Source: a virus. Taken from it: a stretch of 51,261 bases of DNA. The translations under genes were made by a program, and so were the position numbers. The stretch spans positions 1 to 51,261 of the IMG/VR virus record IMGVR_UViG_3300036790_000209; one strand, written 5' to 3'. The notes under the pieces are model-generated. The model was not told where the DNA came from, did not search any database, and saw nothing but the letters and a program-made list of their open reading frames with translations. Shown here one piece after another: positions 26,920 to 49,939 of the stretch (positions within the stretch are counted from its first letter, which is position 1; each line of letters begins with the position of its first letter).

Positions 26920-27903
26920 ATGGCTTTCGGCACAATCGGAACTGGAGTTAGTCAGCCTTCAGCACAGTTAGTCGGTACGCTGAACGCCATTACCCAGAAG
27001 TATATTTATCCCACGATCGGCGATCAGGTCTTCGTCCCCTCCCCTCTATTCTGGGGCTTGACGAAGCGCGGTAAGGACATTCGCGAGGGCGCTGAGATTG
27101 TTTACCCCTTGGCGACCGCCGAGGAAATGACCGGCGGCTCCTACTACGGCGACCAGCTCCTCAACACCACCGTAGTGGATACCATTCAGCCTGCAAACCA
27201 GGTATGGCGTCCTTACTATCAATCCATAGCGGTCCCGGTTACCGACATCATCCTGGGGCGAGGCGGCCCGATGGGCCTCGACCTCGTGCGCTCCAAGATG
27301 GAAATCGGCGCGGGTTCCTTCCTCCAGAAGCTCTGCCGCGCCCTGTGGCACACCTCTCCGCAGAACACCTCGACCGATATCGACGACTTGACTTCTTGGG
27401 TGGCCGACACTTCGAATACCATCGCAGGTATCAACCGCTCGACCTCGACCTTCTGGCAACCAGCGGCTCCAGTTACCGGCGGAGCCGCCGCGCTGTCCCC
27501 GGCGGTCTTCGAAACGGCCTACCAGTCGATTGTCTACGGTTATGACGAGCCCGACCTCTGCGTGATGGACAACGAGCGTTACGGGGCCTTCAAAAATAAC
27601 TACACTCAGTTGATCCGCTATATGGACTTAGAACAGGACGACACCGCTCTCCAGGCCGGGTTCCGCTACCACTTCGTGGTCAACAACGCGGTCATCATGG
27701 CCGACCGTTACACCCCGGCGCAAACCGCTTACATCCTGAACTCCAAATATATCTTCCCGATCTTCAACGCCAACGACTACTTCAAGATCGACCCGTGGAT
27801 GCAGCCGTCGAATCAGCGCGTGGTGGTCTCGAAGATTTATCTTACTTGGCAACTCGCTTGCATCAGCCCGCGCATGAACGTGGAAATTTACGACCTGCAA
27901 TAA
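26920..27903 (+). CDS. Major capsid protein (HK97-type fold expected), 327 aa
   Basis: The N-arm (MAFGTIGTGVSQPSAQLVGT) is followed by an E-loop-like segment rich in Gly and Tyr (AEEMTGGSYYGDQLLNTTVV), a long spine helix (LVRSKMEIGAGSFLQKLCRA) and a beta-rich P/A-domain end (WQLACISPRMNVEIYDL). The gene directly follows the scaffold and is followed by a decoration-type protein and a strong terminator, the usual arrangement. No protease gene is seen, consistent with podoviruses lacking prohead protease. Confidence 0.88.
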   Translation: MAFGTIGTGVSQPSAQLVGTLNAITQKYIYPTIGDQVFVPSPLFWGLTKRGKDIREGAEIVYPLATAEEMTGGSYYGDQLLNTTVVDTIQPANQVWRPYYQSIAVPVTDIILGRGGPMGLDLVRSKMEIGAGSFLQKLCRALWHTSPQNTSTDIDDLTSWVADTSNTIAGINRSTSTFWQPAAPVTGGAAALSPAVFETAYQSIVYGYDEPDLCVMDNERYGAFKNNYTQLIRYMDLEQDDTALQAGFRYHFVVNNAVIMADRYTPAQTAYILNSKYIFPIFNANDYFKIDPWMQPSNQRVVVSKIYLTWQLACISPRMNVEIYDLQ

Positions 27904-29953: not shown

Positions 29954-32581
29954 GTGGCCCTCAAGCCCATTAGGCAGTCCCAGTTCTTGAAGGGACTCAA
30001 TGCCTCGGTCGCGTACAACACGCAGCCGAAAGGCACCGTCCCACGTTTGTCTAACATGGTCTTGACCAGCCGAGGCGCATTGCGGTCGTGCGATCAAAAC
30101 CTCGGCATCTGCACCCGTGGCGGCACCGGCCCCATTACCGACGCAAACCCCTTTCTGGCAATTCAAACCTATCAACCTTCCCCCGTTTTACGCCAAATAC
30201 TGGCCCTGCAAAACGCGCCTGTCGGCTCGCTTACTCCCCCTACCGGGTTGACAGCCACCTTAGCTTCCGGGGGCACTCTACCGGTAGGCGACACTTTCTA
30301 TTATGTAGTTACTTCCATCGATGGAGCCGGTGGCGAGTCGATTGCTTCGAGCGAGGCCAGTCAGACTACCACCAGCGGTAATCAAACTATTAACCTCGCT
30401 TGGACAGCCATACCAGGCGCGGTGTCCTACAATGTTTATCGCGCCACTTCCAGCGGCAATGAAGTGTTGCTGGCGGGTAGCGGACTTCCCGCCACGGTTA
30501 CTGGTTATTCCGACAACGGCTCGGCAACGGTGGTTTCCTCCGGTTATACCATCACTCGCGCTTCTGCCGTAGGTTCGCGCTATCCTAACCCTTCTGGTGG
30601 AGGGTATAGTTACAATACCGCGTTCTTTTTCTACCTTGCTTCCGCGCCGCCTATCGGGCCAACCGGCCCTTTCACCGTGACCGGCAGCTCAAACGCCTTG
30701 TTCAATGCCAACTATCCTTCGGGAGTCGCCACGGCAGGCGCGACAATTACTTATTCACTCCCAGGAAGCTACATTAACGAGACCGGAACAGGGGGAACAC
30801 TCACCTTGGCGAGCGGTGGGGGCGGCGGAAGCATTCGCCCTCCCACTTCAGGGACTTCTTCACTACTCGATTTACTCGATGTGTCGGGGGCATCTTACTC
30901 CTTCCCCGATAGTGTGATTGCGAGCTTCCCCACCGGCTCTATCATACCAATGCCGGTATTCCCGGTAGGCAGCGCTGGAGGCAGCTCGCAAGCCCCGGGA
31001 GGAGGTACCGCGCTCAACCCGGCCGCTGGCAACGTAGCCGGGGCAACCTGTGTGATCCCCGATATGGTCGCGTTCTCGGGGTTGCTGATCTTGGCGCTCG
31101 GCAATGGTTACGCCCCCTATCAAAGCGATGGCACTAACGGCGGGACGGTGGCCCTCACAAATACCTTTACCGGAGCCTTCCCAGGTTGGGTAGCCACAAC
31201 CGCTTACAACCTAGGCGACATAATCGAGCCTGACACTCCGAACGGCCATATCTACAAATGTATCCAAGCAGGCATCAGCAACACGAGTGAGCCGACCTGG
31301 CCTACCGGCAGCGGTCAAACTGTCCAAGATCACACCTGCATCTGGCAGGAGAATGGCTCAAACGCCACCCCAGCCCCGCGTGGGGCCGCCCATGCCATTA
31401 GCCACGCTGGCTCATTATGGCTGTGGAACACTTCCCCTGCCAACACCTCCGATAACCTCGATGGCCCTTCCGTCCTCAAGATGAGCGACGCTAATAACCC
31501 GGACTCATGGAATCCACTCAACGTGAGTTACGTCGGCAAGGATGACGGCCAGCAGGGCATGGGCCTGGCGAGTTTCACCATCGCCGAGGCGGGCATCGAG
31601 CCGACCGAGTCCCTGGTGTTATTCAAAGAGTTCTCAACCTATCAAGTGATCGGTGTGTTTGGCGCATCGGACTTCGAAATCCAGCAGGCTCAAACGAACC
31701 TTGGATGCATCGCTCCAAGGACCATTAAATTCGTCCCCGGCTTCGGCATCGTGCGCCTAACCCACTTGGGATTCGCGGTATTCGATGGGGTCCGCGATAG
31801 ACTCATCAGCGAGGAAATCAGACCATACCTATTTGGTGGAGTAGCCGACATTGTAGCCATGGACCAAAGCTACAGCTACATGGCCAAGGCTGACTTGACT
31901 GCGGTGCCTCCGATGTACGTGGCGGCAATTCCAGTGCTGGGGAATGGCCAAAATGGCAGCTTAACGCGCTTGTGTTGCTACGATCTGGTCCTCAAGGCGT
32001 GGACCATCATCGACATCCCTTTCGCGATTGAATCCTTGAAGCAACTCAACATCCCCGGCAGCTTGCCGCTAACGGTCTTTGGCGGCTGGGCTGATTCGAT
32101 GATTTCAAGGTGGCAGGTGGGCGACCAGCAAGGATGGCAGGCATGGCTTGATCCCACGCAGATCATCCACCAAGGAACGCAGCTTGTGTGGAGCATTCGT
32201 ACTCCATCCGCGCTTGGAGCGCAAGCAACCGATCGCGTTACCTTCCGCCGCCTAATCGTTCGAGGCCAGTGGCAGGGGACGAACACGAGCGGTCCAGGAC
32301 AGCCGTTGATCCCCACCAATTCGACCGGGACCGCTTCGTTTTCAACCTCAATCACCATCGACAAGGCAAACTGGCCGAACGCTCCGGCGCGTAATCTACT
32401 CACTCCCACTGGAGGGGTAGGAGATGCCTCTTTCGAACTGGTTTGCGAAATAGGCCAAACAGGACTTGACGCCTATGCTACAGTAGGCGGCATCCAGGCG
32501 CTTAGCGGCGCTCCCGTCGAAATCATCGAAACAGACTGGCTTGCGATCGCCCGCCCCACCGGGGCTCTATCGAGGGTATGA
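29954..32581 (+). CDS. Tail tubular/stabilisation protein with Fn3-like and sugar-binding-like insert, 875 aa, GTG start
   Basis: GGAGGTAACGC precedes the GTG. The N-terminus (LKPIRQSQFLKGLNASVAYN) and the blade-like repeats after residue 350 (SLWLWNTSPANTSDNLDGPS; LVLFKEFSTYQVIG; IKFVPGFGIVRLTHLGFAVF) fit beta-propeller tail nozzle or DNA-stabilisation proteins of podoviruses. Inserts are an Fn3-like domain (about 95-195), a Gly/Ser-rich region, and a Trp/Tyr-rich module (GWVATTAYNLGDIIEPDTPN) like carbohydrate-binding domains. It probably closes the head and contacts the cell surface. Confidence 0.7.
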   Translation: MALKPIRQSQFLKGLNASVAYNTQPKGTVPRLSNMVLTSRGALRSCDQNLGICTRGGTGPITDANPFLAIQTYQPSPVLRQILALQNAPVGSLTPPTGLTATLASGGTLPVGDTFYYVVTSIDGAGGESIASSEASQTTTSGNQTINLAWTAIPGAVSYNVYRATSSGNEVLLAGSGLPATVTGYSDNGSATVVSSGYTITRASAVGSRYPNPSGGGYSYNTAFFFYLASAPPIGPTGPFTVTGSSNALFNANYPSGVATAGATITYSLPGSYINETGTGGTLTLASGGGGGSIRPPTSGTSSLLDLLDVSGASYSFPDSVIASFPTGSIIPMPVFPVGSAGGSSQAPGGGTALNPAAGNVAGATCVIPDMVAFSGLLILALGNGYAPYQSDGTNGGTVALTNTFTGAFPGWVATTAYNLGDIIEPDTPNGHIYKCIQAGISNTSEPTWPTGSGQTVQDHTCIWQENGSNATPAPRGAAHAISHAGSLWLWNTSPANTSDNLDGPSVLKMSDANNPDSWNPLNVSYVGKDDGQQGMGLASFTIAEAGIEPTESLVLFKEFSTYQVIGVFGASDFEIQQAQTNLGCIAPRTIKFVPGFGIVRLTHLGFAVFDGVRDRLISEEIRPYLFGGVADIVAMDQSYSYMAKADLTAVPPMYVAAIPVLGNGQNGSLTRLCCYDLVLKAWTIIDIPFAIESLKQLNIPGSLPLTVFGGWADSMISRWQVGDQQGWQAWLDPTQIIHQGTQLVWSIRTPSALGAQATDRVTFRRLIVRGQWQGTNTSGPGQPLIPTNSTGTASFSTSITIDKANWPNAPARNLLTPTGGVGDASFELVCEIGQTGLDAYATVGGIQALSGAPVEIIETDWLAIARPTGALSRV

Positions 32582-34051: not shown

Positions 34052-34359
34052 TGGCGGACTATTCGCTTGAATCGTTGGGAGCTAAATTTACCGAGTATGG
34101 AGGAAAGCGCCTTGGCATGTTAATCCCGTGTCCCAACTGTGGGGTCAATGTAGGTGTATATTTCGCCCCATTATCCGAGGACTTCAAAGCCAACTTCGGT
34201 GATAAAGGCCCAACATGGACGGCGACTGGCGACACGCTTAACGCGGTTACTTTACACCCCAGCGTGCGCGTGCTTGGCCACTTTCATTCGTGGGTCCGTA
34301 ATGGGATGCTCTGCGTAGATTCCCCCTTTGAGTGCAAAAAGGACGAGGAGTTTAAATAG
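34051..34359 (+). CDS. DUF6527-like zinc-binding protein, 102 aa
   Basis: The pattern IPCPNCGVNVGVYFAP, then LHPSVRVLGHFHSWVRNGML, matches the small family with CPxCG, a PSv segment, H-x-H and an aromatic W-x-RNG end. C-x2-C plus the His pair probably bind zinc. Such proteins are common in phages and bacteria, function unknown. Its presence inside the internal virion cluster is unusual but start and stop overlaps tie it to the operon. Confidence 0.65.
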   Translation: MADYSLESLGAKFTEYGGKRLGMLIPCPNCGVNVGVYFAPLSEDFKANFGDKGPTWTATGDTLNAVTLHPSVRVLGHFHSWVRNGMLCVDSPFECKKDEEFK

Positions 34360-35621
34360 TGGGCGCGTTATTCCAATCCGTGTCTTCGCAACTCGGCAAC
34401 CTGGGAGGCTCCTACGCGGCCGCGCGCGACGCAGGCATCGAGCAGAAGAACCAGGCGGAGACCCAACAGTTCGATCAGGCTCAGAAACTCCGCGACTACC
34501 TCGAAACGCAGCGGATGGATAACCTCTACGGGCAAGTCCAGAAGGCCAACTTAGCTCGCCAACAGGCCGGTCAATGGGACATCGTTGGCCAACCTATGCA
34601 GACGAACAGTGGCGGCTATGGCGTCGTTGAGCGCAACACAGTCACGGGCGACATCCGTACACGCCCCCTCCCCGCCGACATTCAGCCTCGAAACGAAGAC
34701 GAGGTTAAGTGGGATCAATTCCGTTCCACCTACAAACAAGCATTCGGCACCGACCCATCGCCCGATCTCAAAACAGCCTTCTTCGATAAATTAGGCGGCG
34801 TTGCCGCGCCCAAAATGGACGACTTCACGGCCTGGCGCGAGGCGTTCAAGGTGCAACATGGCCGTTACCCCAACGCCACGGAGATTAGTGAGTTCCACCG
34901 CGCCCCACGGGCAAATATCATCCTCAGCGGGGATGCCCTCGACAACATGGCTGAAGCCGTAGCGGGTGGACAGACAAAACTTCCTTCTGGCAACCTTGGA
35001 GTTCAAGTACTCAATCGCCTGAAAGGGCTAAACTTAAAACTCCCCACCCAGTTAACCCCGTCCGTCCAGGCTAACCTATCCACTCGCGCTGACGCTCTCT
35101 CAACGGCCATCGACACTATTGAGCGCATTAAGCCGAACTTACCGCTACTGCAATCGCTTCCGGCCGCCTCTCTCGTCGATCTGGCGCAGCATCCCGACAG
35201 TGTGGCCCAGTTTTTAACCCGCATGCTCTCAAAGCCTTATTCAGCGGATAAGCAGGCCCAAATCGCTCAACTCGCAGGCGATCTTCGCTCCCTTCAAGAA
35301 CAGGTGAATATCCTGCGGCAGCCTCTTGGAGCCACTGGCTTCCGGGGCAAGGAAGGGTGGGAAGCCCTGCAAATGCAGATTGTCAAGGCCATGGGGAATC
35401 CGCAAATGAGCGCGGTCACCCTCAACAACACCGAATCCACCATGCACAAACTCCTCAACTCCACCCTCGCAACACTGGGGGAAGCACCTGCCTCGGACGG
35501 TCAAGCCCCCACGTCCGGGGTATCCCCCAGCCCACCCCCCGGCGCTACAATGAAAGTGCCGGGAAGCGATGGTAAGTTACATTGGAGTGACGGCGCGCAT
35601 GACCTCGGGGTGGTCCAATAA
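34359..35621 (+). CDS. Large internal virion/ejection protein candidate, 420 aa, GTG start
   Basis: Mostly helical, with a coiled coil (EQKNQAETQQFDQAQKLRDY) and a central domain. The C-terminal end KVPGSDGKLHWSDGAHDLGV is a short beta motif often terminating phage proteins of this type. The GTG start overlaps the upstream stop. Its place between other helical virion genes suggests ejection with DNA. No lytic transglycosylase motif is seen. Confidence 0.6.
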   Translation: MGALFQSVSSQLGNLGGSYAAARDAGIEQKNQAETQQFDQAQKLRDYLETQRMDNLYGQVQKANLARQQAGQWDIVGQPMQTNSGGYGVVERNTVTGDIRTRPLPADIQPRNEDEVKWDQFRSTYKQAFGTDPSPDLKTAFFDKLGGVAAPKMDDFTAWREAFKVQHGRYPNATEISEFHRAPRANIILSGDALDNMAEAVAGGQTKLPSGNLGVQVLNRLKGLNLKLPTQLTPSVQANLSTRADALSTAIDTIERIKPNLPLLQSLPAASLVDLAQHPDSVAQFLTRMLSKPYSADKQAQIAQLAGDLRSLQEQVNILRQPLGATGFRGKEGWEALQMQIVKAMGNPQMSAVTLNNTESTMHKLLNSTLATLGEAPASDGQAPTSGVSPSPPPGATMKVPGSDGKLHWSDGAHDLGVVQ

Positions 35622-36997
35622 TGGCTAATGGAACGCCGGTCAAACTGGACTTCTCGAAAGCACAGCCGATCGCCCTGGACTTCTCAAAGGCGCAGCCAAT
35701 GACTCCAGCCTCGTTGCAAACACAAGGGATCGGTCCCGAGTTGCCGACCAACATGAGCATCCAGAATTACCCTCTGGCCACGCGCGTAAAGGACTCCCTC
35801 AAGCGCATGTTAATGGGTACTGAAGCGAGCTTGCCCGCGCTTGGAGCCGGGACCGCCGTTGCCTTAACTCCAGCCACGGGAGGTGCCAGTGACGCACTCC
35901 TGGCAGCCATCCTGGGCGGCGCGGCGGGCACCAATCTAAAACAACTCACCGCTCACTTTATGCATCAGCCAAACGCCCCCAAGGACATGAAGCAGGCTAT
36001 CGGCGAGGAGGAACTAGGCGGCCTTGAACAAGGCGAGTATGAAGCGGGAGGCCGCGTACTCGACTCAATCCTAGGCCGCTGGGCCGGATCGCGCGTGGCC
36101 GCCGCCTCACGTAAACGCCTCGCTGATTTAACCGCCATGGCCGGGCCCGCCGAAGAAACCAGTTCCAACATCACTAAAGTGCTGCCCGATCTCGACCAGA
36201 CAGTTGCTACGCTAGGCCACAATCCACGTACTCCGCGAGATGTGCTGAATGTAGTCCAGCGGACAAGCGACCGCCTCGATCAACAATTTAACCAGGAACT
36301 TTTCCGCATCGGCAAAGCGCGCGTGATGCCCAAGGAGATTGCCGACCGCATTCGTGCCGAGATCACCCCCGACATGCGCATGACCGCCGAAGGGCGCGCG
36401 GAAGCAAAAGAACTCCAACAGGCTGCCCTTGAGTATGAGCGTCCATGGACGCTTAACCAACTCAACTCTAAACGCATGACCAACAACGCTCGCTTGAGCG
36501 CTTTCTACAAACGCGAGTCTCAAGGACAAGCTACCGCCCTATCGGCCGCGCAAACCAAAATTATGAAGTCCGTCCGCGACGGGGCCGCCGAGATCGTCTA
36601 CGACGTGATGAACTCGCTACCGAACTCATCGATTGACGCTCGCCTGCTCAAGCAGAAACAGGGAGCGCTATGGGACTTGAGCGATCAACTCGATGAGCGA
36701 ATCGATAAACTCACCAACGCCCAACTCAACTTCGAGGGTCGTACACTACGGCAGAAAGTTCAACCTTCCGCCTACCTGTCAGACCGCAACATTCACGGGT
36801 ACTTTCGCGGCCTGGGCGACCTGATCCCCGGCGGCGGCCCCGAACGGCAGGCCATAACTCAAGCGCGCAAAGGGTTCCGTCCTTCTCGTGCTCTTAGTCG
36901 GCAGGCCGTGATCGCGGCTACCCCTCTCGCAAACTTTCTACGGGCCAGCGGAGTATATTCGAATCTGAACGACCAAGAGGGCCAAGATGCCCATTGA
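35621..36997 (+). CDS. Internal virion/ejection protein candidate, 458 aa
   Basis: The N-terminus holds an imperfect repeat (KLDFSKAQPI, ALDFSKAQPM). A hydrophobic Ala/Gly region (ALLAAILGGAAGTNLKQL) able to insert in membranes follows, then long helices to the end. The start overlaps the upstream stop (TAATG). Function as an ejection or channel protein is inferred from position and composition. Confidence 0.6.
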   Translation: MANGTPVKLDFSKAQPIALDFSKAQPMTPASLQTQGIGPELPTNMSIQNYPLATRVKDSLKRMLMGTEASLPALGAGTAVALTPATGGASDALLAAILGGAAGTNLKQLTAHFMHQPNAPKDMKQAIGEEELGGLEQGEYEAGGRVLDSILGRWAGSRVAAASRKRLADLTAMAGPAEETSSNITKVLPDLDQTVATLGHNPRTPRDVLNVVQRTSDRLDQQFNQELFRIGKARVMPKEIADRIRAEITPDMRMTAEGRAEAKELQQAALEYERPWTLNQLNSKRMTNNARLSAFYKRESQGQATALSAAQTKIMKSVRDGAAEIVYDVMNSLPNSSIDARLLKQKQGALWDLSDQLDERIDKLTNAQLNFEGRTLRQKVQPSAYLSDRNIHGYFRGLGDLIPGGGPERQAITQARKGFRPSRALSRQAVIAATPLANFLRASGVYSNLNDQEGQDAH

Positions 36998-37190
36998 GCG
37001 CTTTGTGTCCAAGGAAGCCGAGCGGCGTAACCTGGCCTACCGCCACATGCACGGTATCCCTTACACCGCAACCACCGCCATCGTGGCTGGCCGCGCCCAC
37101 AAAGTTAAACACTCACGCAACGCTAAGCGCCGCAAGATCGACGCGCGCCAGCGGCGTAAGGTAGCCCACCAAAGGGGGAGCCGCCGTTGA
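36987..37190 (+). CDS. Small basic protein, 67 aa
   Basis: Strongly basic C-terminal half (RAHKVKHSRNAKRRKIDARQ). Overlaps the end of the preceding gene by 11 bases and the next start by four. The fourth short Lys/Arg/His-rich protein in the late block. Possible role in DNA condensation or RNA binding; no family recognised. Confidence 0.6.
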   Translation: MPIERFVSKEAERRNLAYRHMHGIPYTATTAIVAGRAHKVKHSRNAKRRKIDARQRRKVAHQRGSRR

Positions 37191-39739
37191 AACTACGATG
37201 GATTATTGGAACATGGACACTTTTGCTGTTATCGGCGATCCCTGCGCGGGCTCAATTTACGCAAGTCAGCGCGACGGTTACAGACCCCAACGGGGCTCCT
37301 TTCGCGAACGGCACATTCACCGCTCAATTCTATGATCCCGGCACCAGTGGTCAGCTTCCACTCATCAATGGTTCCACCTTTCAAAAGGTAATGGCCGGAT
37401 CGCTAACCTCTTTTGGTTCCTTTACCGTAACGCTGGCTGACAACAACTACGTAGCCACTTCATCCGGTGCCACAGGTACTCAATGGCGCTTCACGATCTG
37501 CTCGCAACCCTACACCACCCTTGGCGGCCGAACCTACTGCACCACCGTCTACCAGACCACTATCACCGGCGCATCGATGGACATCAGCGCGGGGATTGAC
37601 GCTAACGCTCCTACCCTCCCATCGACCAATGGCACCTATGTTTATGTCGGCCCGCTTTCAGGGATTCCAGCTACCTGCACGGTAAGCCAACTCTCTTTTA
37701 TTACCGATGCTGCCGCAGGCCAAAATGTTTACCTTTGCACCACGACGAATACCTGGACGCAACAATCAGGTGGTGGTGGAGGAGGCAATCCAGCCGGGAA
37801 CGTCGGCGACCTCCAAACCAAAGCCACCTCCACGACCTTTGGGGCTTCGCATATCAACGATTCGAACGGCGCAATGATCGCTTCGGAATCGCTCTCGATT
37901 GCAGGCCCACACCCTTTCGTGGACGTAAACGCGTATGGCGCGGACCCCACAGGGACGACTGACTCCACAACGGCGATTCAGACGGCGATTACCGCATCGT
38001 GCGCCAATTCAACGCATCCGACCATTCTTTTTAGCGGGCACTATAAAGTAAGCCAGCCGCAGACCCCTTCCACATCGCCCGTTTTCACGATCTGTAACGC
38101 GCTGACGTTGATGGGACTCTCCGACCCCACGGCGGATCAATTCGCCTTTGCACCCCAATCGCGGATTGTAGTGAGCGCCGGATCATCGCCTAACACGGCA
38201 CCAGTGTTCGATTTCGGAAACGAAAACACGCTTAAAAACATTGAAGTGGATGGCTACAACCAAGCCGTGAAAGCGGACGGCGCATTTATCAGCATCGACG
38301 GTTCGTGTTTGTCGTCGGCGGTAACCGGGCAGTCTTTAAATTCGCCCCTGGTGATCGACGGGAATTCGATCTGGATATGGGTGGAGAAGCATAGCTGCCT
38401 GGACAGCAATTCGGTATCCGTGCCGGACATGATCTTCAATTCCAACGACCCTAGCGGCGCGATGGGACTGTATTACATCCAAGACGTGCTGATGAGCGGC
38501 GGCGGCGTGGAGTGGCTCGCCACGGATGACACCACCTCAGGTGTAGCTGGCACCATGGAGTTCTCACGCATCCAGCAGGAAAACTGCGGATCGTCAAGCT
38601 TTCTGAGTTTTACCGGATCGGCTCCCACCGTAATCGGTCCGATCACCATGGATCAAGTAGGACAGGCGGACTGTTCTGGCGGCTACTTAGTGAACTATGA
38701 CGCGGGAGGGTCGATCAGCGGATTAACGATCAATCAAAGCTTGGGCGGATCAGGAGCCGTGGATATGCAGACCGGCTCCATCAGCGACTTTAAAGCGTCG
38801 CAGGGGAGCGGATTGATCGTTGGAAACGGCGGCGTTGCGCGCACAAATTCGAATGGATGGGATTATTACGTTCCAACTACCGCAGCAAATCGACTTCTCA
38901 ATGTCAGGAGCACTGGCGATTCAGGAGCCCCACTACTGCGCGGATTCTCGACTTCCTCATCATATGCATCACTGGCGCTCGACCCCACGTATGGATTGCT
39001 CCTGGGAGACGGCGCAAGCTACGGCTATAACGCGGGCATTGATGAGACCACGCAAGGCGATGCGGATGTCAGCTTCGCGGGGAACCTGCCGCCCACCGGA
39101 TTGACTGCCACGGCAACGACCGGTGGAACGCTCGCGGCGGGAACTTACTATATCTGGGTGCGAACGGTAAAGAGCGGCGCTCAATGCGCCTCTGCGGCAG
39201 GGAATGACGTATCCGCATTCTCGCAGGCTGCAAGCGTGGTGCTCAGCGGCTCGAACGATGCGATCGCCACAAGTTGGACTGCACCATTATTCGCGCCATA
39301 CTCTACCCCGCATTACTGTGAAGTATGGGCCAACACCGCCGTAGTTACCGGAAATGACGGCGTCAACTATGCAAACGTTGCAATCTCCAGTACGTCTTTC
39401 ACCTTGACCGGCTCTAATACGACCTGTTGCGGATACTCTTCAAGCCATCCCAACGTCGCCTATATGTACAGCGCGCATCGCTTCACGCCCGACGCGCTGG
39501 GAATCAACACGCTCACGCCCCAGTATGATCTGGATGTGGCGCACACGCTGGCCGCCAATTCCGGCATCCGCTCAACCGCCATCACGCTGACCGCCAACCA
39601 AGGATTGCTTGAGCCTCTTTCGACTCCTGGCAGTTCCAGCAGCACATGCACGGCAGGCCAGATATGGGCGGACGCAAGTTACGTATACGTATGCACGGCA
39701 ACCAACACGATCGAGCGGGCGGCACTCAGCACATTTTAG
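37187..39739 (+). CDS. Tail spike/fibre with Sec signal peptide and beta-helix, 850 aa
   Basis: Residues 1-22 form a classic signal peptide (basic KLRW, hydrophobic core TLLLLSAIP, cleavage-like ARAQ). The mature part begins with a beta domain (TVTDPNGAPFANGTFTAQFY) typical of secreted proteins. From about residue 245 (FVDVNAYGADPTGTTDSTTA) it is a pectate-lyase-type right-handed beta-helix, as in phage depolymerase spikes. A later Fn3-like domain matches those at 28460 and 29954. It probably binds or degrades surface polysaccharide. A secretion signal on a tail protein is unexpected. Confidence 0.7.
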   Translation: MKLRWIIGTWTLLLLSAIPARAQFTQVSATVTDPNGAPFANGTFTAQFYDPGTSGQLPLINGSTFQKVMAGSLTSFGSFTVTLADNNYVATSSGATGTQWRFTICSQPYTTLGGRTYCTTVYQTTITGASMDISAGIDANAPTLPSTNGTYVYVGPLSGIPATCTVSQLSFITDAAAGQNVYLCTTTNTWTQQSGGGGGGNPAGNVGDLQTKATSTTFGASHINDSNGAMIASESLSIAGPHPFVDVNAYGADPTGTTDSTTAIQTAITASCANSTHPTILFSGHYKVSQPQTPSTSPVFTICNALTLMGLSDPTADQFAFAPQSRIVVSAGSSPNTAPVFDFGNENTLKNIEVDGYNQAVKADGAFISIDGSCLSSAVTGQSLNSPLVIDGNSIWIWVEKHSCLDSNSVSVPDMIFNSNDPSGAMGLYYIQDVLMSGGGVEWLATDDTTSGVAGTMEFSRIQQENCGSSSFLSFTGSAPTVIGPITMDQVGQADCSGGYLVNYDAGGSISGLTINQSLGGSGAVDMQTGSISDFKASQGSGLIVGNGGVARTNSNGWDYYVPTTAANRLLNVRSTGDSGAPLLRGFSTSSSYASLALDPTYGLLLGDGASYGYNAGIDETTQGDADVSFAGNLPPTGLTATATTGGTLAAGTYYIWVRTVKSGAQCASAAGNDVSAFSQAASVVLSGSNDAIATSWTAPLFAPYSTPHYCEVWANTAVVTGNDGVNYANVAISSTSFTLTGSNTTCCGYSSSHPNVAYMYSAHRFTPDALGINTLTPQYDLDVAHTLAANSGIRSTAITLTANQGLLEPLSTPGSSSSTCTAGQIWADASYVYVCTATNTIERAALSTF

Positions 39740-39754
39740 CGGAAGGGAGGTTCG

Positions 39755-41989
39755 ATGAAGCTCAAACTAAGCGCGCTCTTGTTGTTCATCCTCCTGATGG
39801 GAGGGTGGCAGGCAGCCGAAGCGCAGTATCTCGGTGGAGGTTCAATTACTGCTTCAGGGAGTGGATGCGTCACTACAAACTGCGTATTCGGTAACCTTGG
39901 GCAGGATACCGCAAGCGTTTCCTTTACCGTGTCTGGAACCTATAGCGGAACCCTGCAATTCGAAGTTAGTCAAGACGGCACGCACTTTGTTAATATCAAT
40001 GCATACCCTCCAAACAGCACCACGGCGGTTACCGGCACGACCGGCACTGGTACTTGGACCGCGGGAGTCGCCGGGATGACCATCTTCCGCATTCGCTGTT
40101 CAGCTTACACTAGTGGAACAGCTTTGGTGACCATCAATGGGTCTCATGCGGTAGCAACTTCCACCATTACCGCTGGTGGTGGAGGGGGCGGCGGAGGAAG
40201 TTACTATCAAACAATCGAGAATGATGGTTCAGCGCAGGACCAGGAACCTGCGTTGAATCTCATTCCCGGCAGCAACGTCACTTTGGGATTCACCGATACC
40301 CCCGGGGTGTCAACTAATGTGACAGTGAATGCGAGTGGAGGCGGCGGCGATACGATCACAAGCCCCAATAGCACGCTGGCCGTGGGAGGAACCTCGACGA
40401 ATACGACCCTAGACCTGGAAGGCGCTGCCGGGAAAATTATGGCCGGGGCCACTCCCGCATTGACCCCCACGCCGACGCTAGGGGTAAGCGGAACGGCCGG
40501 TAATATTTCATTCTTCCCCGCTTCCGGCAACTTTGAGACCACCCTTGGAAGCGCTGCCACGGCCAGTAATACGATCTTGTTCCCCGCCACGGTCCCGACA
40601 ACCCTTTATGGCTTCCATTGCGTCGTTGCGAGCACAACTTGCACGCTGACGAGTAACGGTTATGCGTACAATGCGATCCCCATCGCAGACCTCGCGAGTT
40701 CGGCGATTACCATTGCCGGTACTTCCGTGTCGCTCGGCGGTTCCACATCGTCGCTGCCTTCTCCGGGCGTCATTGGCGGAACGACTCCCGCAGCCATTAC
40801 CGGAACGACGCTCACAGCCAACACATCGATTACCGACAGCGGGCTCACCGCCTCCTTGCCGATCTGCACGACATCCGGTAAGGTTCTCAGCTCAACCTGC
40901 ACGGCCTTGGTAACCATCGCCGATCTAAATGCCAGCGGCACTCCAGGCAGCACCACCTACCTGCGAGGAGACGGAAGCTGGAGCACCCCGTCAGGTAGCG
41001 GAACGGTCAATAGCGGAACATCCGGGCAGGATTCCTATTACGCATCCACTGGAGCGGCCGTCAGCGGAATCAATACCGCAGGCGGCGGCTCAAACCCGCT
41101 GTGGGGTTCGATTACCTCTCTTGCGCAAGGGCAACAGATATGCGCCGACGCGACACCCAAGCTTATCAATTGCACGCCGGGGGTGGTGCCTAATCCGCAG
41201 ACCGGCACGACTTATCCAGTGGTGCAGGGGGACAACGGGAAGTACCTAAGCTTCTCCAATGCGTCCTCGATTGCCGTAACAGTTCCCTCGGCTGCGAGCT
41301 TAAGCGCTAACTTCGCCTTTCGCGCCTGCGACATCGGGACGGGGACCGCAACCCTCACGCCCACTACCTCCACGATCAGCTACACGACCGGAAACTCCTA
41401 CACTTCGGCTGCCTCCAGCATGGCGCTGACGACCGGCGAATGCGCCAACGTCTATAGCGACAACACGAATTATTTTGCCAATCAGACCATCGGCGGCAGC
41501 GGGACCGGACTCTCTGGAATGACGAGTGGTCAGGTTCCTGTTGCAGCGTCCGCCACTACCGTCACGTCTTCAAAGGCCCTGGCAGGCAGCGGCTCTGGGA
41601 TCACCACCGGCCCGACAAGCGCGACCTCGCTCGACGTGGCGGAGATGACCGGAACAAGTGGACAGATCGCTGATGGCGGCGTATTGGTCTCCAAGCTGAC
41701 GCAAACGATTTGCAGCGGGACAATTGCGTTGGGAACCTCGGCCATCGCATCGGGTGCGGCGGCTACCACAGTCACAGCCACATGCACCGGCCTCGCCACC
41801 ACCGACACGATGATGCTCTCCTTCAATGGCAGCCCACTTGCCGTCACCGGCTACGTGCCGAGCGCCAGTGGCATGCTGACAATCATCGACTGGCCCACAT
41901 CGAATACGATTAACGTGTCCGTGGTGAACAACACAGCTTCCAGCGTCACGCCGGGAGCCATCACGCTGAATTACCGGGTGACCCGGTGA
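39755..41989 (+). CDS. Fibre-like repetitive protein with signal peptide, 744 aa
   Basis: A signal peptide (KLKLSALLLFILLMGGWQAA, then EAQ) is followed by a beta domain (CVFGNLGQDTASVSFTVSGT) and a long Gly/Thr/Ser-rich region of short beta repeats. Phrases such as GTPGSTTYLRGDGSWSTPSG are typical of trimeric tail-fibre shafts. GGAAGGGAGG precedes the start. It is likely a receptor-binding fibre or a secreted surface protein; repeats make it prone to recombination. Confidence 0.65.
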   Translation: MKLKLSALLLFILLMGGWQAAEAQYLGGGSITASGSGCVTTNCVFGNLGQDTASVSFTVSGTYSGTLQFEVSQDGTHFVNINAYPPNSTTAVTGTTGTGTWTAGVAGMTIFRIRCSAYTSGTALVTINGSHAVATSTITAGGGGGGGGSYYQTIENDGSAQDQEPALNLIPGSNVTLGFTDTPGVSTNVTVNASGGGGDTITSPNSTLAVGGTSTNTTLDLEGAAGKIMAGATPALTPTPTLGVSGTAGNISFFPASGNFETTLGSAATASNTILFPATVPTTLYGFHCVVASTTCTLTSNGYAYNAIPIADLASSAITIAGTSVSLGGSTSSLPSPGVIGGTTPAAITGTTLTANTSITDSGLTASLPICTTSGKVLSSTCTALVTIADLNASGTPGSTTYLRGDGSWSTPSGSGTVNSGTSGQDSYYASTGAAVSGINTAGGGSNPLWGSITSLAQGQQICADATPKLINCTPGVVPNPQTGTTYPVVQGDNGKYLSFSNASSIAVTVPSAASLSANFAFRACDIGTGTATLTPTTSTISYTTGNSYTSAASSMALTTGECANVYSDNTNYFANQTIGGSGTGLSGMTSGQVPVAASATTVTSSKALAGSGSGITTGPTSATSLDVAEMTGTSGQIADGGVLVSKLTQTICSGTIALGTSAIASGAAATTVTATCTGLATTDTMMLSFNGSPLAVTGYVPSASGMLTIIDWPTSNTINVSVVNNTASSVTPGAITLNYRVTR

Positions 41990-42606
41990 TCCGCAGACTT
42001 GCATCCATTGCCCTCCTCCTGGGCCTGATCGCGCTAGGAATGCGAGCGCATCAACTTAGCGGTCCGATGTTTCCCGGCCCGGGAATGCCAGCGTCCAGTG
42101 GAAGCTACACCGGGATCACCTGTCAAAACTCCACCACGCATGATACGAACGACGGCGGTGGAGACACTACGGCTACGGTTGGAAACTACTGTACAACGGG
42201 AAACGATCCATCTGGCTATACACTGACTAATTTGAATGCCGATTTGCGTGTGGCGGCGCTGAGCACGCTTTATTTAGCTCTCTATACCGACACCACCAGC
42301 GGATGCACGGGAAGCGTCCCGCATTGTCAAAACACGCTAATCTGCGATGCCTCCCTCGGCCCTAGTATAATCGTAGGAACGAATTCCGTGCTCCCCACTG
42401 GATGCGGGACGCTCGCCGCCAATACGATTTATTGGATAAATTACCAAACAGGGGACGGAACTGATGCCCTGGGAGTTAATTCAACAGGACCAACGGACTT
42501 GCCATGGAGAAGCGGTACAACAGCCGGAACCTGGCCCAGCCCATTCGCGGCGGATAACGCAGACAACGTAGACGACCAACTTTGGATGACAGGGACCAAC
42601 AATTAA
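41986..42606 (+). CDS. Secreted/fibre-accessory protein with signal peptide, 206 aa, GTG start
   Basis: The GTG overlaps the upstream stop. The N-terminus MIRRLASIALLLGLIALGMR is signal-peptide-like. The rest is beta-rich with about eight cysteines (TGITCQNSTTHDTNDGGGDT; TSGCTGSVPHCQNTLICDAS) that could form disulfides outside the cytoplasm. Third of four adjacent signal-bearing genes. No family recognised. Confidence 0.6.
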   Translation: MIRRLASIALLLGLIALGMRAHQLSGPMFPGPGMPASSGSYTGITCQNSTTHDTNDGGGDTTATVGNYCTTGNDPSGYTLTNLNADLRVAALSTLYLALYTDTTSGCTGSVPHCQNTLICDASLGPSIIVGTNSVLPTGCGTLAANTIYWINYQTGDGTDALGVNSTGPTDLPWRSGTTAGTWPSPFAADNADNVDDQLWMTGTNN

Positions 42607-44567
42607 TGCGTCGATGTCTCCTGTTGGCTCTGATCCTTGCCGCGCCAATCACCCATGCGCAATCCGTATTCCCAGGGCAGAGCGGTGATCCGGTAGGATA
42701 TGCGGCCATCGGCTCGCTGGGAACGTCGGCGTGTCCGTCAGTCACCAGCGGAACGTCCGGCAGTCCAAACTTCATCTCTAACTGTAAATACAGCACGTGT
42801 CCGTCGCTGACTGGAATCTCCTACGTGGTGTTTATGTCCGTGGATTTCAACTGCGGGACGGACACTCTAACCGTGGACGGCAGCCACATCACCTTCTACG
42901 GCTCGCGCATACAGTCAAACAACTCCTGCACAACAGGCTGCTTCGGCGTTAATACCTATGTGACGGGCGCCTACGAGACTTTCATGTACACGTCGATCAC
43001 GCCGCTCGCGTCCCAAAACGCGACTCCTCCCGGCTACACATGGCCGTCGGCGGGAGCGGGCGAGAATACGACCGATTGCACATCAGACGCCTATTGTACG
43101 CCGGGGGCACACAGTTATCAGTACGGCATCCAGCTAGGTTCATCCGCCGCGCAGCATGTTTACATCGACCACGCCGACGTGTGGGGCTTTGGAAATTCCA
43201 TTGACCTGTATCAAGCTACCGTTGGACCCACCACGATCGCGGGCAGTCAGATTCACGATGCCGCCGACCCGGACACTTACAGTTACCACACCGACGGCCC
43301 GGGCTATCTAAACAGCGGCGCGGGCGTCAACAACGTCATCGTTCAGGGGAACACAATTGCTTCGCTTGGGAACACCAACGGGATTGCATTCCAGGCGGCC
43401 ACGAGCGGTTATAGCGGACTGCTTATCAATTTTAACTACCTCAGCGGCTTCGGTAAAAACTTCGCCGGCTGCGATCCAGGCTCGACGCCCTGCACCAACT
43501 CGACGGCCTACGGCAACGTCTTTGGCACCGATGTGATGCCTTACTACGGCCCGAATTACGGCTGGCAGGGGGGCACAAATTCCGTGTGGGCCTGCAACAA
43601 AATTGCTTTCGCCACGGGCACCACATGGACCGGCGGCGACGGCTGGACGCCCGTTTCGGGCGACAATGGGAAATACTGGCTCTATAGTTCAGATAGCGCG
43701 CCCAGCAGCTCGACCGACCAAGGAGGCAATACTATCTGCGGAATTTTGAATCCAGGCGATCTTGCTTTCAAGGCGGAAGGAACAGGCACAACTTCATCGG
43801 CCCAGACCGTCACGTTGACCAACGGGAACAGCGCCACGCTGACCATCAGTTCGGTGGCGCTCGAAACGGGAACGCAGTTTACGATCTCAGCCAACACCTG
43901 CGGATCATCGCTCACGTCTGGAAGCAGCTGCACGATTTCAGTCGAGTTCACCCCCGGCGCGCAGGGTCCGCAAACCGATCAGTTGCAGATCACCGACAAC
44001 TCGCCGTCATCCAGCAGCCCCGAATTCGTGCCGCTGATCGGACTGGGCACGAGTGGCAGCGGTTCAGCCAGCACTCCCACGTTCTCTCCGGGCGCGGGGA
44101 CGTATGTCGGAACGCAAACGGTCGCAATTTCTACCTCGGCAGGAACAGTGATCTGTTGGAACACGACAGGCTCGCCAGCCACGAACGGCGCGACCGGCTG
44201 CACCACTGGAACGCTCATCAGCGGGACATCGGGGAATATTACCGTATCGTCCAGCGAGACAGTCTACGCCGTGGCGGGCGGAACGGGATATACGGACAGT
44301 TCGGCAGGCAGCGCGGCCTATGTGATTGTGACCATCCCCGCGACGCCTAACATGAATATGTTAGCAATGTTTGGGAGGGATGGTAAACCTTTTAGCCTTA
44401 GTGGGTTCGTGCTCTCCGGTGACGGCGAAGCGCAGCACGCAGTAGGACGCCACGATAACCACGAAAATCAGGAATGGCATGTCATTTCTCCTATCGATCA
44501 AATTGTGGGCATACAGAATAGCACACTTTCTGGATTGAGCGCGCTGCTATTTGGTGTCCCCTGGTGA
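42606..44567 (+). CDS. Secreted beta-helix fibre with Hydin-like and chitobiase-C-like domains, 653 aa
   Basis: The ATG overlaps the previous stop (TAATG); a signal peptide (MRRCLLLALILAAPITHAQS) follows. The body is a parallel beta-helix of pectate-lyase type (HVYIDHADVWGFGNSIDLYQ). Then come an ASPM/SPD-2/Hydin-type Ig domain (SAQTVTLTNGNSATLTISSV) and a chitobiase/hexosaminidase C-terminal-like domain (STPTFSPGAGTYVGTQTVAI). Such domains are common in secreted bacterial proteins. The last 70 residues run antisense through a small minus-strand gene and look unlike the rest, so the original C-terminus may be lost. Confidence 0.65.
   Translation: MRRCLLLALILAAPITHAQSVFPGQSGDPVGYAAIGSLGTSACPSVTSGTSGSPNFISNCKYSTCPSLTGISYVVFMSVDFNCGTDTLTVDGSHITFYGSRIQSNNSCTTGCFGVNTYVTGAYETFMYTSITPLASQNATPPGYTWPSAGAGENTTDCTSDAYCTPGAHSYQYGIQLGSSAAQHVYIDHADVWGFGNSIDLYQATVGPTTIAGSQIHDAADPDTYSYHTDGPGYLNSGAGVNNVIVQGNTIASLGNTNGIAFQAATSGYSGLLINFNYLSGFGKNFAGCDPGSTPCTNSTAYGNVFGTDVMPYYGPNYGWQGGTNSVWACNKIAFATGTTWTGGDGWTPVSGDNGKYWLYSSDSAPSSSTDQGGNTICGILNPGDLAFKAEGTGTTSSAQTVTLTNGNSATLTISSVALETGTQFTISANTCGSSLTSGSSCTISVEFTPGAQGPQTDQLQITDNSPSSSSPEFVPLIGLGTSGSGSASTPTFSPGAGTYVGTQTVAISTSAGTVICWNTTGSPATNGATGCTTGTLISGTSGNITVSSSETVYAVAGGTGYTDSSAGSAAYVIVTIPATPNMNMLAMFGRDGKPFSLSGFVLSGDGEAQHAVGRHDNHENQEWHVISPIDQIVGIQNSTLSGLSALLFGVPW
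44361..44480 (-). CDS. Antisense small membrane protein, 39 aa
   Basis: MPFLIFVVIVASYCVLRFAV forms a transmembrane helix; a basic tail (TGEHEPTKAKRFTIPPKHC) follows. AGGAG lies seven bases before the ATG. It is the only minus-strand gene inside the late block and overlaps the 3' part of the fibre gene, suggesting insertion of a small gene that shortened the fibre. Confidence 0.5.
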   Translation of the reverse strand: MPFLIFVVIVASYCVLRFAVTGEHEPTKAKRFTIPPKHC

Positions 44568-47077: not shown

Positions 47078-47240
47078 GCCCACTCATCGATTGCCTAACC
47101 TGGCGGGCGCGTTCCATATCGACCATTTCAATCACCCGATCCAGTTTCGCACGGTAAACCCCTCGTGCGTTTGTATCGATGTGTTTAACTTCCAAGATGT
47201 CTTCGATATCCTGCCACACGCACTCGCGTAACTCAATCAT
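46998..47240 (-). CDS. Hypothetical protein, last gene of the replication block, 80 aa
   Basis: The ATG overlaps the polymerase stop (TGATG) and has GGGAG seven bases upstream. MIELRECVWQDIEDILEVKH continues with a charged helix (YRAKLDRVIEMVDMERARQV). The 3' part overlaps a convergent late gene by 80 bases and is basic and less protein-like, so the true end may have been altered by this overlap. Confidence 0.55.
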   Translation of the reverse strand: MIELRECVWQDIEDILEVKHIDTNARGVYRAKLDRVIEMVDMERARQVRQSMSGPIVKPLQSPLPGQRSRAHGTRRSSEG

Positions 47241-48493
47241 CAGCTGACTCCCTTCATTCCCAGTGGATTAGTAGATTCATCAAACGGTCCCCAATTCCCC
47301 CCTTCGGCGGACATCGAAACCTCGGCACCGATCGTCAAACCGTCCAGCTCAAAAATAGGGGAAGTAAAAACGCTCTGGAACGCCTCCACGACCTCCTGAG
47401 CGCGCCCCATGGGCGGTACGGCCAGCAGGCTGTCGTGCACCGGCAGACGCAGCCAGGGCGCGATTGGCGACCCCCATAGGGCGATGATGAAATTATCCTG
47501 GATCATCGAAGCGGCTGTTTGCGGCCTGCACGCAATCGCTCGCTTAGCGTCATCCCCCAGCACGTAACACTGTCTGCGCCGATCCCACCCAAATACGTGA
47601 AAGAAGCGGTGCCGGGTGCCGAAAGGAGTAGTAAGATACCGATCGTGGGCAGCCTGCTTCAAGGTAGCGTCCCACCAACGCTTCAAGTCCTCCCCCGGCT
47701 CCGTCGCAAGGAGTGTATTCTGTAACCTTCTTGCCACGGCCGTAGTCGGGAACTCATCGGGATACTCATCGTGCATCCGCTCCGGGGTGCCCCGATACGC
47801 CGTTAAGTGCACAACTCGTTTGGCTACTTCCCTTGATTCCTTGGAGTATCGTTTCTTAGCCGCTCGACAGGAAGCCCGGAGGGTTTCAATGTCTGTGTCA
47901 AGCGAAATTGGTTCACCATGTACGACGGAGTTGAACCAATCGTGAATGCCGCATTTGGCGAGCCGTATGTAACGCTCAGATCGAGCGAAGTACCCCACCA
48001 GGACGGCCTCAATAGCCGAACTGTCAACCTCAACAATAACGTGGCCAGGAGGAGCGACAACCATGCGGCGGAATTCATTCGCAAGTTCCGAGCGCTTGGG
48101 AATGTTTTGCAGGTTATAGTCCCTTGCGGATTTCCTCCAGGTAGAAGGATGATGTCCGATTGTTGTGTGAACCCTGTTGTCATGGTCCAGGCTCCATTTA
48201 TAAGTGGAAACCATCTTCCAGCGCTCGCGACAGTCGAGTATGAGTCGAAAGACAGGATGTTTCTTAGCGGCCTGCTTCAGATACTTCTTCTCGGTCGAGA
48301 GGGCGTCTTCGGAGTCGCTGTCCCGGCGCTTGGGCAAGCGCACGCCTAAATGGCCAGCCAACCGAATCACGTCGTCTTGAGAGTCAGGGTTGAACGGCTC
48401 AATGCGCATGAAGCGGTCAGGCAGCGAAGGGCGTTTACGTTTAGGCTGCTCTGCCGCGTCTAACTCATCCAGCAGTTTAGCGAGATCAGTCAA
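47240..48493 (-). CDS. DNA polymerase family A, polymerase domain, 417 aa, TTG start
   Basis: The fingers/palm motifs of PolA are present. The template-primer segment is RVHTTIGHHPSTWRK...DYNLQNIP. Motif A is VIVEVDSSAIEA (D157). Motif B is REVAKRVVHLTAYRG (R221, K225, Y233). Motif C is LPVHDSLLAV (H353, D354), with Ser where Glu is usual. It synthesises phage DNA. The N-terminal thumb and proofreading parts are in the upstream gene. A TTG at 48493 with AAGGGATGG before it is the likely start. The frame continues upstream through a TAG codon into the UDG-exonuclease gene. Confidence 0.88.
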   Translation of the reverse strand: MTDLAKLLDELDAAEQPKRKRPSLPDRFMRIEPFNPDSQDDVIRLAGHLGVRLPKRRDSDSEDALSTEKKYLKQAAKKHPVFRLILDCRERWKMVSTYKWSLDHDNRVHTTIGHHPSTWRKSARDYNLQNIPKRSELANEFRRMVVAPPGHVIVEVDSSAIEAVLVGYFARSERYIRLAKCGIHDWFNSVVHGEPISLDTDIETLRASCRAAKKRYSKESREVAKRVVHLTAYRGTPERMHDEYPDEFPTTAVARRLQNTLLATEPGEDLKRWWDATLKQAAHDRYLTTPFGTRHRFFHVFGWDRRRQCYVLGDDAKRAIACRPQTAASMIQDNFIIALWGSPIAPWLRLPVHDSLLAVPPMGRAQEVVEAFQSVFTSPIFELDGLTIGAEVSMSAEGGNWGPFDESTNPLGMKGVS

Positions 48494-48511
48494 TGTAATT
48501 CCATCCCTTCG

Positions 48512-49939
48512 CTATGAGGATGCGTCCTTCGTCGTTGATGAAGGCGAGTGGGATGGTTCCGCTGGAATTCCACAAGATGACTTGCCACCCAGACTCGGGA
48601 ATAACTCGATCACCCCGGTCAAGTCCTTGGGTGCCCGCTTCCAAAACTTTCGCTTTTTTACACTGTCCGGGACCGCGAGTTGCAGCCTTGCGTTGGCGTC
48701 TTCCCATTCATCCTCCAACCGGTCCATGAAAACCTTCTGCCGCTCCACGTCCACGTTAAGCCCGCGCTCACCCATGACTCTTAGGGGCTCATCAACGAGG
48801 ATGCAATGGCGTTCGAAGCCTTCCCACCTGCCATCCTTCACAAGAATTGCCTTGGTGCCCATGTAGACATCCATCGTAACGGCGTTATCCATTGCGTTAT
48901 ACCACGCAGGCCGCGCTTGGGACTCCGACTTCCACGGCGGTCCACCATAGAAGAAAGGGGCGACCAAGCCCAAGCCCTTTCGGAGGTCCGATTCAAGCCA
49001 GTGCCACGCCCACATACTCGACACGATGCGAGCTGGCAGTCGCAGGCCCGCGTGACGCAATCGTCGGCTATCAAAGTGATTGTCGGCATGTTCAACCATT
49101 TCGTCTGCTGCATCCAGGGCCTCCTGCAAGATGCCGATATAAGGCTCCATCCACGGGAAGGAAATCGCGGTGCCCTGACGCACGCTAAAGCCCGCTCTCA
49201 CGATCGTCCAACTGGCTCCTTCCTGTTCGATTTCTTCTTCGTCCAGGCGATCGCTCTCGGGAGTTTCAATGTCCACGATGAGCGTCGGTATGCGTCCTGT
49301 AGCCAGCAGGCCGCTGCGCAGGTAAACTCTAGCCTCCTCGATGGGAGGGTCAAGCAAGAGGTCATAATGCGTAGGCTCGAATGTTCCATGAGCAATGGTT
49401 CTTGCGCGGTTGAGCGCGAACAGCACGGCCGCGTTTAACTTTTGCTGTCCTCGCTGAACGAAGGATGGATGATAGGTTGGCACAGCGAACACTCCATAGG
49501 GAGTGGGCAATACATAACCGGCAGCGGCCTCGATTCCACTGATTCCGCATATGCGGCGCAGTGCGACATTGCCCATCGGCACAATGACTTTCGGGGACAT
49601 TCGTTCGATGAGGCCGTCCAGGTTGGGCCTACAGTGTTCGATGGCCGCATTGGCGTCCTTATAGCGATTGGGGTAATCCATCCACCCAAGCCGAGTGGGT
49701 TTACACCAAATACTATTGGCTACCATAGTGTCGCCCCGGTCGATATTCACTAATTGAAGTTGGCGATTGAGCATCCCCCCGGCTGCGCCTACAAAGGGCC
49801 TTCCTTCCTTGATCTCATCGATCCATGGAGAGTCCCCAATTATCAGGATGCCGCTGGTCCCGGCGCCGTCGGGGGGAATGAAGCGGATTCCCAGGTCACG
49901 ATGAGGGCAATCTACACAGAATGGTCCGTTAGGAGTCAA
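48512..49939 (-). CDS. Uracil-DNA glycosylase domain fused to 3'-5' exonuclease (N-terminal part of the polymerase), 475 aa
   Basis: Residues 1-180 form a family-4-type UDG: four Cys for a 4Fe-4S cluster (C8, C11, C79, C103), motif 1 GDSPWIDEIKEGRPFVGAAG, motif 2 TYHPSF. Residues 215-365 form a DEDDy exonuclease: D223 and E225 in IVDIETPES, D290 in DNHFDSRR, Y347 and D351 in YNAMDNAV. The following helices resemble the polymerase thumb. The protein would remove or sense uracil and proofread the polymerase encoded next. It ends in TAG; the same frame resumes six codons before the polymerase TTG. The start overlaps the upstream stop by four bases. Confidence 0.85.
   Translation of the reverse strand: MTPNGPFCVDCPHRDLGIRFIPPDGAGTSGILIIGDSPWIDEIKEGRPFVGAAGGMLNRQLQLVNIDRGDTMVANSIWCKPTRLGWMDYPNRYKDANAAIEHCRPNLDGLIERMSPKVIVPMGNVALRRICGISGIEAAAGYVLPTPYGVFAVPTYHPSFVQRGQQKLNAAVLFALNRARTIAHGTFEPTHYDLLLDPPIEEARVYLRSGLLATGRIPTLIVDIETPESDRLDEEEIEQEGASWTIVRAGFSVRQGTAISFPWMEPYIGILQEALDAADEMVEHADNHFDSRRLRHAGLRLPARIVSSMWAWHWLESDLRKGLGLVAPFFYGGPPWKSESQARPAWYNAMDNAVTMDVYMGTKAILVKDGRWEGFERHCILVDEPLRVMGERGLNVDVERQKVFMDRLEDEWEDANARLQLAVPDSVKKRKFWKRAPKDLTGVIELFPSLGGKSSCGIPAEPSHSPSSTTKDASS

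Follow-up and report, generated by a model that had tools for sequence, protein, structure and literature searches.

The window analysed here, a virus record of 51,261 bases, carries four consecutive genes (S1 to S4, Table 1) at the position that podoviruses reserve for spikes and fibres, and all four open with predicted Sec signal peptides. We propose that S1 to S4 are spike/fibre proteins of a podovirus, each made with a cleavable signal peptide, which would be exported and cut at a site of the A-x-A↓Q type (↓, cleavage), and that the mature chains would fold in the oxidising periplasm, where their cysteines could pair into disulfide bonds. Capsid, portal, nozzle and internal proteins, all signal-free, would be assembled in the cytoplasm, and at lysis the mature N-terminal module of the spike would dock on the nozzle complex, with the receptor-binding parts joining last, outside the cytoplasm. 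We give this whole reading, in which periplasm-folded spikes dock on virions after export, at lysis, a probability of about 0.5; export and cleavage of these proteins, taken by themselves, are highly probable. Export, cleavage and disulfide bonding are what we infer from sequence signatures, and docking after export with less certainty than these three.

Table 1 Features of the window discussed in the text (↓, predicted cleavage site).
Feature	Coordinates	Strand	Description
Major capsid protein	26920..27903	+	query used to gather 80 relatives
Tail nozzle/hub	29954..32581	+	P22 gp10, SU10, T7 gp12-like fold; no signal peptide
Putative internal virion protein	34359..35621	+	by position, no family match; no signal peptide
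Putative internal virion protein	35621..36997	+	by position, no informative family match; final gene ahead of the spike cluster; no signal peptide
S1	37187..39739	+	850-aa spike/fibre-like protein, TTG start; signal peptide 1-22; N-terminal module ~25-145; pectate-lyase-like segment near 244-291; fibre C-terminal module 809-850
S1 signal peptide	37187..37252	+	predicted ARA↓Q cleavage
S1 N-terminal module	37259..37621	+	common to 44 proteins of relatives
S2	39755..41989	+	744-aa fibre-like protein, ATG start; signal peptide 1-23, AEA↓Q
S3	41986..42606	+	206-aa protein, GTG start; weakest signal peptide of the four
S4	42606..44567	+	653-aa protein, ATG start; signal peptide 1-18, THA↓Q; ASH domain 385-468

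The sequence-only reading had placed Sec signal peptides at the starts 37187, 39755, 41986 and 42606, and both the N-terminal sequences and the predictor scores confirm all four. We used a rule-based predictor of cleavable Sec signals with a pass threshold of 11, checked on eight E. coli proteins, where OmpA, PhoA, MalE, LamB and Bla reached 11.5-13.5, LacY 7.6, and LacZ and GAPDH gave no site; S1, S2, S3 and S4 scored 12.0, 14.5, 11.7 and 12.9, respectively. Read from the sequence, the N-termini are MKLRWIIGTWTLLLLSAIPARA↓QFTQ for S1, MKLKLSALLLFILLMGGWQAAEA↓QYLG for S2, MIRRLASIALLLGLIALGMRA↓HQL for S3 and MRRCLLLALILAAPITHA↓QSVF for S4. Each has the tripartite organisation with an A-x-A-like site, least clearly in S3, for which the best-scoring site of the predictor is instead ALG↓M. 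The longest frame of S4 begins at 42582 (TTG), and 42606 was judged the better start, the same choice as in the earlier reading. Few other ORFs of the window exceeded the threshold, and the only one resembling a real gene with a comparable N-terminus, at 46415, is small, has a membrane segment and probably belongs to the lysis region.

The window contains a podovirus head-tail block with terminase (20263), portal (22466), capsid (26920) and a tail gene (28460), and the order further downstream is nozzle, the two putative internal virion proteins, S1 to S4, a DUF5675 gene and a small membrane gene, so that the four genes occupy the podovirus spike/fibre slot. The structure model of the nozzle gene product (pLDDT 72) matched the nozzles of Pseudomonas phage Pa223 (Z 26.6), SU10 (Z 25.1) and P22 gp10 (Z 22.2), and this protein is likely the platform for the spikes. 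S1 matched a fibre C-terminal family (phrog_17312, 1e-11) and a pre-neck appendage family (phrog_4775, 1e-4), and S4 a hydrolase family (phrog_18474, 2e-9), while searches with S2 and S3 gave no fibre-family sequence match. No other obvious spike gene was found in the window.

Additionally, the insertions of the nozzle protein vary strongly between relatives, one of them being CBM5/12-like, and the nozzle might itself bind the host surface. Outside the structural block, neighbouring Prok-JAB and ThiF/E1-like genes on the minus strand (9119-9946 and 10050-10727) show weak likeness to PRTRC system proteins A and ThiF and to E1-E2 defence models, weakly suggesting a phage-encoded ubiquitin-like conjugation pair. 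Also on the minus strand, adjacent ORFs at 47240-49939 encode a family A DNA polymerase domain (47240-48493) and, at the N-terminus of a 475-aa product (48512-49939), a family 4 uracil-DNA-glycosylase domain; the two may together represent a split replication protein.

A search of IMG/VR with the capsid protein yielded 80 loci, and the DNA downstream of each capsid gene was scanned. In each of the 21 genomes, the window included, whose sequence extends more than 12.5 kb past the capsid gene, at least one signal-peptide gene followed it, and 15 of these 21 had two or more such genes in a row; the largest set, in L070/L104, comprises nine such genes downstream of the capsid, six of them consecutive. 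Considering genes of at least 300 aa in the window genome and its relatives, the predictor passed 63 of 150 among the non-core genes that follow the capsid gene, compared with one of 231 conserved core structural genes, one of 44 minus-strand genes, four of 38 upstream non-core genes and eight of 1308 shuffled N-termini; the background is near 0.5%. Given the low pass rates in core genes, minus-strand genes and shuffled N-termini, signal peptides on four out of four adjacent genes lie far beyond chance. Among 95 signal peptides, the residue at -1 was Ala in 85 and that at +1 Gln in 53. The closest comparison is with L002, whose capsid protein is 88% identical: the two genomes are colinear up to and including the internal proteins (43% identity for 34359..35621), yet in the spike slot only the N-terminus of S1 is shared (46%) and L002 carries six different signal-peptide genes, which by sequence comparison looks like the usual pattern of receptor-binding loci. 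That the trait belongs to the whole capsid superfamily was rejected, as the signals are absent from L115 (in Bradyrhizobium) and L163 (in Stenotrophomonas), both distantly related. S1, S4, the portal and the S1 module found no matches in a collection of isolated phages.

An iterated profile search seeded with S1 revealed that its N-terminal part is a module of about 120 residues occurring in 45 proteins (S1 and 44 of relatives), in 42 of them directly behind the cleavage site. The combination of this conserved module with a variable remainder applies to S1 only; S2 to S4 do not contain it. The only Pfam match of the module was a weak one to CarboxypepD_reg. A model of the module from one relative (pLDDT 92) is a transthyretin/CNA-B-like beta sandwich, and it resembled the cyanophage A-1(L) tail fibre (residues 1-104) and neck fibre (1-93; both Z 7.8) as well as tail-tip chains of Ur-lambda (1-90, Z 6.8) and Bxb1 (2-82, Z 6.9), although such matches, all with Z below 8, can reflect a mere common fold. 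Three module homologues (G009, G005 and G004, the last with an uncertain start) have no signal peptide, and their modules contain no cysteine at all. The one from G005 (L008, 13704-15299) lies just ahead of the nozzle region, apart from the signal-peptide genes of that phage, and may be a form of this docking module that stays in the cytoplasm.

Furthermore, the trait recurs in cultured phages. Tunturi 1-5 are phages of Acidobacteriota grown on Tunturiibacter, and the text describing them makes no mention of signal peptides, mass spectrometry, virion proteomics or secretion data (PMC11924767). In the podovirus Tunturi 1, five of the six genes ORF12-17 carry signal peptides, including the annotated 'tail spike' and 'virion structural protein'; ORF13 scored just below the threshold, with a signal that is clear by eye. 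Tunturi 2, a podovirus grouped with Tunturi 1, has the same cluster, and signal peptides also stand in this slot in L117, a metagenomic sequence related to Tunturi 1. The siphovirus Tunturi 4 carries them on ORF111, ORF113 and ORF114, for ORF111 with a start earlier than annotated: the GenBank start at 80433 removes the signal peptide, and the longer frame from 80076 (record 80076-83171, L142 30076-33171) opens with LNRISKAIGLCALALSVGSSYG↓QTAA. In the jumbo myovirus Tunturi 5 they are found on ORF337, 338, 341 and 342, for which the annotation gives tail fibre or virion structural protein. Tunturi 3 has no signal-peptide fibre cluster and few cysteines in its fibre genes, and a host-wide property of all tail genes was rejected, as this phage infects the same host species. 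Because Tunturi 3 and the distant capsid relatives are without it, the trait follows some phages and not the host alone, across morphotypes. Tunturi 4 and 5 also carry other tail proteins without signals, and these phages may therefore not depend on the exported ones. Overall, we tentatively suggest, at slightly worse than even odds, that Sec export, periplasmic disulfide locking and extracytoplasmic attachment arose in Acidobacteriota phages of the podo-, sipho- and jumbo myovirus types.

The host of the window phage is likely an acidobacterium, judging from the metagenomic relatives, the A-x-A↓Q style that the window proteins share with those of the Tunturi phages, and the ASH domain of S4, which also occurs on a Granulicella plasmid, where its best match is a 'choice-of-anchor D' protein. 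The cleavage-site style does not prove such a host, since Bacteroidetes also favour Gln at +1 (PMC10367356), and a search of the genome collection with capsid and module revealed no prophage relative that would show one.

Whether the exported proteins would end up on the virion is the point on which the main rival explanation differs. In that explanation, S1 to S4 would be exported, and perhaps delivered into the medium, as free depolymerases or adhesins. They would remove the exopolysaccharide of the host, help progeny out of the matrix or prevent superinfection, without ever becoming part of the particle. It fits the pectate-lyase-like segment of S1, whose PF12708 match (25.5 bits) lies under the cut-off of 27, the ASH domain of S4 with its 'choice-of-anchor D' match on the Granulicella plasmid, and the composition of Tunturi 4 ORF114, which is roughly a signal peptide plus the large domain found at residues 390-982 of Tunturi 1 ORF17 (47% identity over 751 columns, cysteines in common). 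Exported spikes need not reach virions, and the purposes offered by the sequence-only reading, namely capsule stripping, superinfection block or action as free enzymes, are possible. On the other hand, a conserved N-terminal module is joined to a replaced remainder in the canonical spike slot, no second obvious spike gene is at hand in the window, and for the genes that fill this slot the annotations of Tunturi 5 and 1 read tail fibre, tail spike and virion structural protein. A docking-like module of this kind, ahead of a variable remainder in the spike slot, would by its sequence pattern speak no less for incorporation into the virion, and we regard free enzymes as rather unlikely. The general assumption for tailed phages is that tail fibres fold in the cytoplasm and are attached there; the tailspikes of P22 and the fibres of T4 are attached last, and can be added in vitro. 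We thus favour docking after export because of the slot, the architecture, the fold, the missing alternative spike gene and this last-step attachment of tailspikes and fibres.

The cysteines of these proteins are consistent with an oxidising destination. The mature parts of S1 and S4 contain 16 cysteines each (17 in the S4 precursor), S3 has six, and only S2, with 13, has an odd number. Behind the capsid genes, signal-peptide proteins contain 2.03 cysteines per 100 aa, compared with 0.65-0.77 in the other proteins, and 65 out of 76 have an even number, compared with 41-46% of the others. When complete genes only are counted, the mature number is even in 76 out of 87 (p 4e-13), and among genes with one cysteine inside the signal peptide in 23 out of 26 (p 9e-5), p-values that are inflated by the relatedness of the sequences, with a direction that is nonetheless uniform. 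The same holds for the Tunturi phages, where 11 of 12 signal-peptide proteins have an even mature number, compared with eight of 24 non-signal structural proteins. Within the module, three pairs of cysteine columns covary (16 proteins with both and none with a single one; 25 and two; five and one), with a tree-based sign test that did not reach significance on 4, 2 and 9 supported independent changes in the best tree. The first two pairs appear, from the strand positions in the model, to flank the ends of neighbouring strands.

The same counts bear on the improbable alternative that the signals stay uncleaved, as membrane anchors or buried in the assembled fibre, with no true export. The weak cleavage site of S3 would agree with it, but the strong preference for Ala at -1 and Gln at +1 argues for cleavage, and the high, paired cysteine content is at odds with a cytoplasmic fold. 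Above all, parity fits the mature chain and not the precursor: in the 23 genes just mentioned the number becomes even only after removal of the signal, which implies cleavage, and the uncleaved anchor was rejected on this comparison. Of what the sequence-only reading had made of the signals, export out of the cytoplasm is thus supported, by cysteine enrichment, even numbers, covarying pairs and recurrence in unrelated phages, and retention as a fibre anchor is disfavoured.

If anything even less probable is an origin as lysogenic-conversion cargo (morons), that is, secreted host genes acquired by the phage. The ASH domain of S4, present also on the Granulicella plasmid, would agree with such an origin, whereas the window contains no tyrosine integrase (PF00589), no prophage relatives were found in the genome collection searched with capsid and module, the same slot and module recur in dozens of phages, and the cultured phages that share the trait belong to three morphotypes. 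Finally, that the signals are a prediction artefact, hydrophobic N-termini produced by permissive start choice, is barely credible: the predictor is rule-based and not SignalP, but only 0.6% of shuffled N-termini and 0.4% of core genes passed it, and cysteine parity is independent of the features it uses.

If periplasm-folded spikes do dock on virions after export, virion assembly in whole lineages of soil phages has an extracytoplasmic step, and disulfide bonds become available to fibre evolution, perhaps usefully so in acid soil and against proteases. Annotators would have reason not to discount a structural tail protein on account of a signal peptide, and to distrust starts picked without the signal peptide, which can be wrong, as in Tunturi 4 ORF111. 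Should the proteins instead be free enzymes, the secretion of several large spike-like depolymerases by one phage ahead of lysis would still be new. The cultured pairs of Tunturi 1, 4 and 5 with Tunturiibacter should make the trait testable at once.

Virion proteins with signal peptides that are assembled from outside the cytoplasm are familiar from filamentous phages (pIII, pVIII), but those phages have no tail and are extruded without lysis, and the subunits, unlike S1 to S4, are anchored in the membrane. Among tailed phages, Sec export is already known for endolysins, such as Lys44 of fOg44 with its cleaved signal peptide and the SAR endolysins of P1 and phage 21 (PMC6116005), and for a few genes of unknown function (PMC10367356). 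The endolysins likewise show a tailed phage routing a late protein through the host Sec pathway, yet they are lysis enzymes, one per phage, whereas here up to nine structural-type genes occur per phage and family searches found no lysis domain in S1 to S4. The second set, the 'Q rule' signal-peptide genes of Porphyromonas gingivalis phages, numbers five in Bacteroidetes prophages; cleavage exposes Gln in their products, which are not described as tail fibres (PMC10367356). In the literature searched, mostly without subscription journals and preprints, we found no precedent for Sec-exported tail fibres. The nearest counterparts of the window phage are those found here, Tunturi 1/2, 4 and 5 with the same signal-peptide fibre clusters, Tunturi 3 being without the trait. 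With podovirus spikes and fibres (P22 gp9, T7 gp17, the phi29 gp12 appendage, the lambda Stf N-terminal domain) the proteins described here share the slot behind nozzle and internal proteins, an N-terminal module with a variable remainder, a pectate-lyase-like segment and a conserved fibre C-terminus (phrog_17312, phrog_4775). To our knowledge, those known spikes and fibres have no signal peptides, fold in the reducing cytoplasm and are not disulfide-bonded, in contrast to the proteins described here, nearly all of which carry Sec signals and paired cysteines.
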